Assembly: GCA_002238825.1 (NCBI GenBank)
Contig: MPNC01000008.1
Location: forward strand, 62,001-126,000
Length of the DNA: 64,000 bases
From: SAR202 cluster bacterium bin87
GTDB taxonomy: Bacteria > Chloroflexota > Dehalococcoidia > Lucifugimonadales > UBA3495
Reading direction: 5' to 3'
The notes under the pieces are model-generated. The model was given only the letters and a program-made list of their open reading frames with translations, was not told the DNA's origin and made no database searches. How positions within the stretch are numbered: the stretch's first letter is position 1; each line of letters starts with the position of its first letter. A program made the position numbers and the translations under genes. This document shows positions 26,196 through 33,659 of this stretch, one piece after another.

Positions 26196-27035
26196 TTGCG
26201 GCAACAGATCGTAGCCGTCACCGCCGCTATCGTGCTGGTGGCTTTGTTCCTGGCCCTCTGGCTGTCGAATCTGCCGGGTCTGCCCGCGGTCCCGTACCAG
26301 GCGACACGAGCCAATCCGACACCTACGACTACTCCGCTTGCGCCGACTCCCATCGTGGTGACGGCGACGCCAACTGCGGCGCCCACCCTCATTCCTACCG
26401 CTCTGCCCACGCCGACGGTGCCGCCCACACCCGTTCCCACGCCCACCCGGCGGCCCACTCCGACGCCGGTGCAGCCAACACCCACGCCGCGGCCTCATTT
26501 CCTGGAGGTGCATGATCCTCCCGACATGGCGACCATCTACGGTCCGCCCCTGATTATCGTTTCGGGCTCCACACTGCCCTGGTCCATCGTTGAGCTCATT
26601 TATTCCAGCAGCGCATTGCCGGAGCGAGACGTGAGGGTGCAGGCGGATGCCCAGGGCAACTATGCCAGCGCCGTACCGCTGTCTACAGGAATAAACGTAA
26701 TCGAGGTCATCGGATACCACGGCTCATCTTCACGGCAGGAACGACAATTCCTTCAGGTCCATTACGCCGGCTCGCAGGAAGAGTTGACCCTGACGATCAC
26801 CGACCCCGCGGGTGCATCCACGGTGAGCAATCGCATCCTCACGGTCACCGGGTTCACGGCGCCCGACGCTGAGGTAATCGTAAGCGACCTGATACCCGCA
26901 TTGCCCGATCCCACCGGCCTTTGGGTTGCTGATCTGCTGCTTCAGCCCGGCGCCAACACGATCCGGGTGGTGGCATCCAGAGGCGACGAGGTAACCGAGG
27001 CCGTCATCACGGTCACCTACCAGCCCGGATCCTGA
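26196..27035 (+). CDS. Secreted Thr/Pro-rich protein with two Ig-like domains
   Basis: A 279-residue protein with an N-terminal membrane or signal helix (AVTAAIVLVALFLALWLSNL). A Thr/Pro-rich spacer (about 40-100, repeats such as PTPTPRP) comes next, then two beta-sandwich domains. These resemble glucodextranase-B or bacterial Ig-like folds: VHDPPDMATIYGPPLIIVSG with GINVIEVIGYHG, and TITDPAGASTVSNRILTVTG with PGANTIRVVASRG. The start is TTG at 26196 with no strong ribosome site, so it is uncertain. It lies 31 bases after the kinase and may be regulated by it or act as its sensory partner. Confidence 0.7.
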   Translation: MRQQIVAVTAAIVLVALFLALWLSNLPGLPAVPYQATRANPTPTTTPLAPTPIVVTATPTAAPTLIPTALPTPTVPPTPVPTPTRRPTPTPVQPTPTPRPHFLEVHDPPDMATIYGPPLIIVSGSTLPWSIVELIYSSSALPERDVRVQADAQGNYASAVPLSTGINVIEVIGYHGSSSRQERQFLQVHYAGSQEELTLTITDPAGASTVSNRILTVTGFTAPDAEVIVSDLIPALPDPTGLWVADLLLQPGANTIRVVASRGDEVTEAVITVTYQPGS

Positions 27036-29243: not shown

Positions 29244-31103
<1,860 letters not shown>

Positions 31104-31157: not shown

Positions 31158-31299
31158 ACATTTTCTCCCGGATGTGTGTTCAACGCTCGTAGATTTTTTG
31201 TAAAACCGCCAAAGAACGCCGCTGGATATGCGGACAAGTCGCGGGCGAAAAGCCTATACTCCGGGCTGCATACCCAGTCTGGAACGGGTAAGGGAGGTA

Positions 31300-31500
31300 A
31301 TGTCGGTGGAAGCGATGGAGTTGCCGATTTGTCAGCAGTGCAACATCGGGGCGTTGGTGCCACTCTCGGACTACGGTGCGCAGGGTGCCCCGGTCCACTA
31401 TAAAGCTTGGACCTGCATCAACCCCAGCTGCGGATACAACATCAAAATCCGCAACGGAGATATCTTCGTCAACGAGCCAATCCGGGCTGGAAGGCACTGA
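31300..31500 (+). CDS. Small zinc-ribbon protein
   Basis: A 66-residue protein with two cysteine pairs, C-x2-C in PICQQCN and C-x4-C in WTCINPSCGY, spaced like a zinc ribbon. The ATG at 31300 has AGGGAGGT directly upstream. A frame extending further upstream has no support. TATACT at 31254 may be its -10 box. The function is unknown; small zinc ribbons often contact nucleic acid or RNA polymerase. It sits between rpoD and the sortase-fold gene. Confidence 0.7.
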   Translation: MSVEAMELPICQQCNIGALVPLSDYGAQGAPVHYKAWTCINPSCGYNIKIRNGDIFVNEPIRAGRH

Positions 31501-31610: not shown

Positions 31611-32375
31611 ATGCAGATTGGACTTGATTACATGCAGATGCGCACCCGAGCGCAATATTACGGGTTGCGCTGGGCAGGCATCTCTCTTCTGGCCGTCGGT
31701 GGGATATTGGCGGCTTCCGGCATCGCATACTACGGGTACCTCTACTTCTTGAGGGCGAGCCTCGACGATTACGAAGCGCTCCGCCAGGACGCAACATTGA
31801 TCGAAGCTGCAGCGCCTGCCGGCACAGCCGGCGGGACTGGTGTGTCCATCGTCTCACTCCCCGCCGGCGCGTACGCCCAGCGGGTGCAAGAACTGGGTTA
31901 CTCCGAGATGCCCAGCGCCGCCGCCTGGCCCGTGGGAACTCAGCCCCCGGCATCCCGCGTCATCGTTCCGTCACTGGGAATCGACGCCAGGCTTGACCAG
32001 GTCAGCATCTCGGGCAGTTCCATCGCCAATTACGCCGCAGCAGACAACCCCGCCGCCGGTTACGCCTCGGTTACCGCCAATCCTGGCGAACGTGGGGCAA
32101 TATGGCTCTTTGGCCCGGCCGGCTCGGGCGTGCGCAGCTTCGGCAGCCTGACCCGCGCGCCCCATCTGCTCACTGAGGGCGATGAGCTGTTGATGTTTGT
32201 AAACTCCTCGGACCGGGACTACCTGTACGCGGCTACCCACAGCGAAGTGGTCAAGGCGGGAGACCTGCGCCTCAACAGCAGCGATCGGGCGACCATCCAC
32301 CTCGTCGTCCCCGTCCCCAAGGGCTGGTACGACCATTTCCTGATCCTGAGCGGTGAACTGGTGGGCGTTCGCTAA
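31611..32375 (+). CDS. Sortase-fold membrane protein lacking the catalytic residues
   Basis: This 254-residue protein has one N-terminal membrane helix (about 24-46), a low-complexity linker and a sortase-like beta-barrel beginning SRVIVPSLGIDARLDQVSI. Typical sortase spacing follows: a SFGSLTRAPHLLTEGDEL segment and a YLYAATHSEVVKAGD strand. The catalytic motifs are absent. Where G-H is expected it reads LFGP (166-169). Where TLxTC is expected it reads TIHLVVPVP (228-236). The C-terminal arginine position falls in YDHFLILSGEL. There is no cysteine in the whole protein, so transpeptidation is impossible. The ATG at 31611 is preferred for its AGGGAA site. Assignment to the sortase fold is from pattern only. 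Confidence 0.65.
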   Translation: MQIGLDYMQMRTRAQYYGLRWAGISLLAVGGILAASGIAYYGYLYFLRASLDDYEALRQDATLIEAAAPAGTAGGTGVSIVSLPAGAYAQRVQELGYSEMPSAAAWPVGTQPPASRVIVPSLGIDARLDQVSISGSSIANYAAADNPAAGYASVTANPGERGAIWLFGPAGSGVRSFGSLTRAPHLLTEGDELLMFVNSSDRDYLYAATHSEVVKAGDLRLNSSDRATIHLVVPVPKGWYDHFLILSGELVGVR

Positions 32376-32399: not shown

Positions 32400-33659
32400 T
32401 TATCCGGTCTTGCTTCGTTTCTCTGCGGCTGGGAGCACCAGCCGCAGTTCGTATATGCGTCGCCCCCGCACCTGCGTGACCTCGATCGACGTCTGATCTG
32501 AAGCTACCACGTCTCCCACGGAGGGCATCCGCCCCAGCAGCGTGTAAACGTACCCGCCGATGGTATTGACGTCACCGGAATCGAGCTCCAGGCCCAGCAC
32601 GCGCGACACGTCCTCCACGGGAGCCGTCGCTTTGACCAGCCAGGACCCGTCGGCTACGGGTTCCAGTTCTTCAGCTGCGGCATCGTCGAACTCGTCGTCA
32701 ATCTCGCCAACGATCTCTTCGAGCACATCTTCCAGTGTGACCAGACCTTCCACACCGCCGTACTCGTCCACGACGATGGCCATCTGCAAAGACTTCGACC
32801 GCATCAGGTGCAGCAGATCGTCGACCGCCATATTCTCGGCGACAAATTCTGGTTCGCGCATGATGGAGTTGACGTCGGATTGCCATGCGCCCTCCGCCAC
32901 CGTCTGCAATACGTCACTGATGTGAATGATCCCCACCACATTGTCCATGGTGTCCTGGTAAACCGGCACTCGAGTGTGCCTGGTGTTGACCAGCATCCGC
33001 ACCAGTTCGTCCATTGCGGTGGTCACCTCTACGGCCTGCACGTCCAGCCGCGGCACCATGATGTCCTTGACGTCATGATCATCCATGTGACTGATGGACC
33101 GCACCATGTCGATGTCGTTGCGGTCCAGGTTCATCAGCTCCGCCGGGGTCAGTGTCGGACCGTCCGCATGGCCGTTCTCCTGGTCCCCATCGGGACCACC
33201 ATCCATCGCGATCGGAAGGCTGGGTTCGATTGCGGAACCGGGCCAGTTGGCATAGCCGATCCAACGCCTCGGGTCCGCCAGCCGGCGAACAACCCGGGGC
33301 GACTGACGGGCCCACAGACGCGCGCCGAGGTAAACGCACGCCAGACCCGTGGAGGTTGCCATCACCGCCACTGCCAGTGCGATGAAGGCCGGGGATCCGT
33401 TGGCCAGCTGGTACGCAATCGCCAGGGCGGAGCCGCCGGCTGTTGCAGCGGCGGCGGCTAACAGGATCCCTATCGCCGGGGATGACGGCCGCGCCAGAAA
33501 GACCGCATTCGCCTGGCTTTGTCGTCTGGACGCTGCCGCGACGCTGGCCCAAGCAAACAGCAGCAGCGAGGCTGCCAGGAACAATAACGGAGGTAAGCTA
33601 CTATCAGTTTCCAAGCCAGTGGCCCTCAACCGGCGCTCGCGGCGCCGAGAGCGGGTCAT
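32400..33659 (-). CDS. CorC/HlyC-like CBS-domain membrane protein
   Basis: This 419-residue protein of the hemolysin/CorC family has three hydrophobic segments in the first 120 residues, forming a reduced membrane domain. A CBS pair follows (HDVKDIMVPRLDVQAVEV and MREPEFVAENMAVDDLLHLM, with VVDEYGGVEGLVTLEDVLEEIVGEI). A C-terminal CorC_HlyC domain (WLVKATAPVEDVSRVLGLEL) ends it. Relatives are linked to magnesium and cobalt efflux or envelope maintenance. It lies 14 bases after glmU and is probably co-transcribed. Confidence 0.85.
   Translation of the reverse strand: MTRSRRRERRLRATGLETDSSLPPLLFLAASLLLFAWASVAAASRRQSQANAVFLARPSSPAIGILLAAAAATAGGSALAIAYQLANGSPAFIALAVAVMATSTGLACVYLGARLWARQSPRVVRRLADPRRWIGYANWPGSAIEPSLPIAMDGGPDGDQENGHADGPTLTPAELMNLDRNDIDMVRSISHMDDHDVKDIMVPRLDVQAVEVTTAMDELVRMLVNTRHTRVPVYQDTMDNVVGIIHISDVLQTVAEGAWQSDVNSIMREPEFVAENMAVDDLLHLMRSKSLQMAIVVDEYGGVEGLVTLEDVLEEIVGEIDDEFDDAAAEELEPVADGSWLVKATAPVEDVSRVLGLELDSGDVNTIGGYVYTLLGRMPSVGDVVASDQTSIEVTQVRGRRIYELRLVLPAAEKRSKTG

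Follow-up and report, generated by a model that had tools for sequence, protein, structure and literature searches.

What is a sortase fold used for once its enzymatic activity is gone, and to what does a sortase attach its substrates in bacteria without peptidoglycan? Both questions are raised by a gene in a 64,000-nucleotide stretch of DNA from SAR202 cluster bacterium bin87, the whole of which is called the window here. Class E sortases carry a Cys/His/Arg triad, use lipid II as the acceptor and act on substrates that bear sorting signals. The gene at 31611..32375 (+) is an open reading frame of 254 codons with an ATG start, and its translation contains no cysteine at all, as the original prediction had stated. 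The same prediction called the product a pseudo-sortase, a designation that is justified by its fold, its orthology and its conservation throughout the genus. In a literature search of limited range, neither a natural pseudo-sortase nor any discussion of sortases in SAR202 or Dehalococcoidia was found.

The gene does lie, as predicted, between a zinc-ribbon gene next to rpoD and a CorC-like gene. The small zinc-ribbon ORF (znr; 31228..31500, +), which has no Pfam match, stands 3' of rpoD (29244..31103, +), and on the other side a CorC_HlyC/CBS gene (32400..33659, -) is convergent to the pseudo-sortase gene. The order dnaG-rpoD-zinc ribbon-sortase-corC-glmU is constant in the window's family, and the zinc ribbon is the 5' neighbour of the sortase across most of the order. 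The same synteny is seen in genomes whose sortase gene is intact, dead, truncated or missing. Because this neighbourhood is conserved, the window gene is the in-place orthologue of the sortase. Outside the window's family, the conserved neighbours beyond the zinc ribbon gave no clue to function. Homologues were found in 78 of the 99 genomes of the order that were searched; the genomes compared are mostly MAGs, and the close relatives of the window protein come from Dehalococcoidia MAGs. The gene would have come by vertical descent from the Dehalococcoidia order's own sortase. That sortase is nearly always present in one copy: of 98 genomes, 59 have a PF04203 match over the cut-off, a single one each except in G052. 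This genome, which lies outside the window's family, is the only one here carrying two sortases, a tandem pair on the minus strand (L040, 4735-5637 and 5927-6895) in which one is intact and the extra copy has His-to-Asn and Cys-to-Ala changes. The intact sortases of the order (e.g., L034 and L027), which are PF04203 members, are direct orthologues of the window protein and share its locus and its layout of tail, helix and barrel. They differ from it in that they keep the His/Cys/Arg triad and the segment ETPxxVVGHIP, and LPxxGD proteins are encoded in the same genomes. From this co-occurrence, it is predicted that the enzyme of the intact relatives cleaves C-terminal signals of the LPxxGD type, and does so in cells that lack peptidoglycan.

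Of 79 aligned homologues, 53 have HCR in the triad columns, 11 have HSR, 14 have PPF, EPF or APF and one has NAR. In the window protein, the His, Cys and Arg columns of this order-wide alignment are occupied by Pro169 (codon CCG, 32115..32117, +), Pro234 (CCC, 32310..32312, +) and Phe243 (TTC, 32337..32339, +), so that the predicted replacement of all three catalytic positions holds. The question of phylogenetic conservation was addressed in the 14 genomes of the genus, and the dead form was found in every one: the Cys site is always Pro, the Arg site is always Phe and the His site is Pro, Glu or Ala. Since the lost triad recurs in 14 of 14 genomes, it is due neither to chance nor to sequencing error. 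The genus has also lost the ETPxxVVGHIP segment, near-invariant among the intact relatives, and the S-E-G loop following His. The position of the former (residues 132-153; 32004..32069, +) is degenerate and corresponds to a stretch of low pLDDT in the model of the window protein. The core residues W165, F167, G168, F177, L180, Y206, L231, P236 and L250 are kept, and the first 54 residues (31611..31772, +), which comprise the N-terminal tail (MxIGLDYMQMR...) and the membrane helix, include positions invariant in all 14 genomes. No known sortase mechanism can operate in the window protein. Could its active site have moved, making it an enzyme of a new kind? Several residues have become fixed in the genus, among them H210 and R226, which do not vary among the 14 genomes and seldom occupy the same positions in intact relatives, and which might form such a site with the conserved T228 and H230. 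However, the protein has no Cys and no evident conserved nucleophile, and this possibility is regarded as unlikely.

A search for intact paralogues found none in the genus besides a likely contaminant in G013. PF04203 gave no sortase over the cut-off in any of the 14 genomes, and a profile of the intact relatives recovered only the pseudo-sortase, plus one contig-end fragment in G013 (C43, L088). In this fragment, Cys and Arg are retained, and its sequence is similar to that of genus g13. The corC and glmU genes of C43 are 43% and 54% identical to those of the window, compared with about 85% and 79% for G013's own locus. The fragment was rejected as evidence of a second sortase in the genus, as likely MAG contamination.

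The constraint on the pseudo-sortase is comparable to that on its neighbours glmU and corC. Its median dN/dS in the genus is 0.21 over 49 usable pairs, and dS approaches saturation in many pairs; the values for corC, glmU, dnaG, rpoD and znr are 0.26, 0.20, 0.16, 0.14 and 0.11, respectively. In the nearest pairs, dN/dS is about 0.06-0.12 overall, and the linker is least constrained. Across the genus, Pro234 is encoded by four synonymous codons and Phe243 by two, so the residues themselves are maintained. The genus branch is long in the barrel tree (1.4) and likewise in core genes (1.2); thus, fast change is not particular to the pseudo-sortase. It might be argued that the gene is a vestige, which lost its function together with its substrates and is drifting to deletion like the stubs or missing genes of its relatives. 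Loss of the barrel or of the entire gene in related clades would agree with this, as would the degenerate ETPxxVVGHIP segment. However, the ORF is intact in 14 of 14 genomes, dN/dS is low and near that of housekeeping neighbours, and Pro234 and Phe243 stay invariant despite the synonymous changes. A vestige is therefore disfavoured by purifying selection, and we hold it to be quite improbable. Since the triad loss is common to 14 genomes, dN/dS is low and the genus has no second sortase except for the likely contaminant in G013, the window gene is a maintained pseudoenzyme derived from the order's sortase and not a case of decay. Purifying selection also means that the protein does something.

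What are the substrates of the intact enzymes, and does the genus still have them? Scanning the sampled loci for LPXTG tails with a regular expression returned only chance matches. With PF00746, three weak matches exceeded the cut-off, and one below it pointed to a real signal. Through a weak LPXTG match in G072, a secreted protein was identified that has LPGTGD-helix-RTRR at its end and whose homologues occur in 30 genomes and mostly end [LPA]Px[TVA]GDxxVP-helix-Arg. A profile of this tail ([LPA]Px[TVA]GD, membrane helix and Arg; 27 rows, none from the window's family) was run against 98 genomes, and predicted sorting-signal tails were found in 46. In the window's family, the matches are mostly unrelated proteins of about 200-270 aa with a Pro/Thr stalk and LPxxGDP tails. 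Sorted by the state of the sortase, predicted signals are present in 36 of 52 HCR and 8 of 11 HSR genomes, and the profile found them in 0 of 14 dead-triad genomes, 0 of 6 stub genomes and 0 of 7 genomes whose visible locus has no sortase gene. Taken together, 44 of 63 genomes with His, Arg and Cys or Ser kept have signals, against 0 of 27 with a dead, truncated or missing sortase (Fisher p = 7e-11), and within the window's family the counts are 13 of 20 against 0 of 23 (p = 2e-6), both p-values being uncorrected for shared ancestry. Within the window's family, a sign test restricted to pairs of independent descent had 2-4 pairs, too few for significance; none of the pairs ran in the opposite direction. 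G018 and G026 have tails and no sortase was found in them, and the zinc-ribbon marker of the locus is also missing from these incomplete assemblies.

These counts bear on the role first suggested for the window protein, the binding of sorting signals or the regulation of true sortases. Pseudoenzymes are frequent regulators of their active relatives, and the sortase fold is retained, both of which would suit such a role. However, none of the 14 genus genomes has another sortase of its own to be regulated, the tail profile detected sorting-signal proteins in 0 of 14, and the ETPxxVVGHIP segment is lost. Neither part of the suggestion is supported in the genus, and the role is considered very unlikely. 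Of the secreted Thr/Pro-rich proteins said to be encoded nearby, one was found at window positions 26196-27035 (+); it has a Glucodextran_B domain and an N-terminal anchor, and it carries no sorting signal.

The acceptor of class E sortases would also be missing. Neither mraY nor murG had a match over the cut-off in the 98 genomes, in which controls were positive and one partial sub-cut-off mraY was seen (G045). Since both are missing in the order, there is no lipid II synthesis. SAR202 and related Dehalococcoidia have been reported to be without peptidoglycan (PMC10444878, PMC10284905, PMC11994032), and the mraY and murG negatives are consistent with this published absence (PMC10444878, PMC10284905).

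The fold of the window protein was modelled by AlphaFold2 with an alignment of 61 sequences, namely the window protein and its relatives (pLDDT 81, pTM 0.76). The model has a long N-terminal membrane helix (residues 3-54), followed by a barrel (residues 112-254; 31944..32372, +). All of its best Foldseek matches are sortases. In VIA-align, sortase E (SrtE) of T. fusca heads the ranking with a Z of 12.0 over 123 aligned residues at 2.9 A, and SrtA structures follow at most 1 Z behind. The retention of a membrane anchor and a sortase barrel, as first proposed, is thus upheld by comparison with known sortases. The intact relative L034 reaches a Z of about 15 against the same chains. With T. fusca SrtE and S. 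coelicolor SrtE1 (PDB 9m6n, 9iok, 5cuw), the window protein has in common the barrel and the N-terminal anchor (Z about 11-12, 123-124 residues). It differs from class E in having no triad, and its genus has no detected sorting signals and no lipid II genes over the cut-off. Even an intact relative matches classes F, C and E only weakly, far under the NCBIfam class E/F cut-offs, so that the intact sortases are given no class, and a PDB sequence search with the window protein gave only a weak SrtA match. A chance barrel with no sortase kinship might be read from the Pfam Sortase alignment (PF04203, residues 119-232), whose 14.7 bits are below the curated cut-off of 26.6, and from the lack of any NCBIfam match, but it has next to no probability given the structural match and the position-conserved orthologues that shade gradually into clear PF04203 sortases, and is ruled out by synteny and alignment.

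The best explanation, and in our judgement a fairly probable one, is that a vertically inherited sortase has turned into a non-catalytic, membrane-tethered scaffold or binding protein of the envelope. As the alignment and the profile search show, in the genus ancestor His changed to Pro, Glu or Ala, Cys to Pro and Arg to Phe, the ETPxxVVGHIP segment degenerated and the sorting signals vanished. Purifying selection has kept the non-catalytic, membrane-tethered extracytoplasmic barrel. Since selection maintains the gene in each of the 14 species sampled, with neither a working sortase nor detectable signals in their genomes, its present job is probably structural or binding. Most likely it would serve the envelope as a scaffold or a binding protein, and partners would be bound by the conserved N-terminal tail and by the barrel. 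Pseudoenzymes in general, dead paralogues or orthologues that act as scaffolds, likewise keep the fold, lose the catalytic residues and have a maintained gene. Unlike them, the window protein has replaced the cell's only sortase, and there is no active partner to regulate.

Remodelling of this sortase is not confined to the window's genus. On a tree built from dnaG, rpoD, znr and glmU, dead forms are nested among intact sortases and amount to at least four losses of catalysis in the window's family: the triad loss in the window's genus, deletion of the barrel in genera g3 and g7, a Cys-to-Ser change in g4, where the gene is missing in G037 and G042, and loss of the sortase gene in G022. In g3 and g7, the remaining frame of 117-162 codons ends WVNPLGYEQ or similar. 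These stubs (L138, L139, L140, L168, L169, L170) lie between the zinc ribbon and corC, and the MEAGYDY tail, the membrane helix, the linker and the LYPAG..W.NPL end persist in them, with the barrel absent. Because both ends are conserved, the stub may have a function of its own. Since it keeps the tail, the helix and LYPAG..W.NP, the N-terminal part can be retained without catalysis, and its retention in the stub clade suggests that the tail and helix have their own role.

The Cys-to-Ser change arose independently in g4 (L015-L022, L024) and, outside the window's family, in family f7 (L069, L071). In g4, the Ser is fixed and is encoded by several TCN codons. Like the window protein, these orthologues have lost the catalytic Cys; unlike it, they have His and Arg in place, in g4 together with ETPxxVVGHIP, and signals occur in most of their genomes. 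As two lineages made this change independently with signals kept, serine sortases are possible, and these forms are the best candidates for them.

A single locus thus presents a graded series of intact, Cys-to-Ser, dead-triad, barrel-deleted and lost genes, and the predicted substrates follow the enzyme. More tentatively, wall-less Dehalococcoidia might possess a near-single-copy sortase with LPxxGD signals and a non-peptidoglycan acceptor, a system that would have been remodelled repeatedly, with two serine-nucleophile lineages and with a structural-only form in the window's genus after signal loss.

Some of the predicted substrates deserve mention in their own right. An order-wide family of secreted proteins of about 360-450 aa (L179:381-1502 and its homologues L187-L214) has an LPxTGD-type signal and no Pfam match over the cut-off, and it is the probable main substrate of the sortase. 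A second predicted substrate family (L247-L254, L257-L260, L262, L263, L266) consists of proteins of about 200-270 aa without a Pfam match, with a Pro/Thr stalk and an LPxxGDP-helix-ARRR tail. In G089, a region of about 31 kb (C1:1820555-1851082) contains five big ORFs of 1123-2133 codons with weak sorting-signal tail matches, which possibly encode giant surface proteins.
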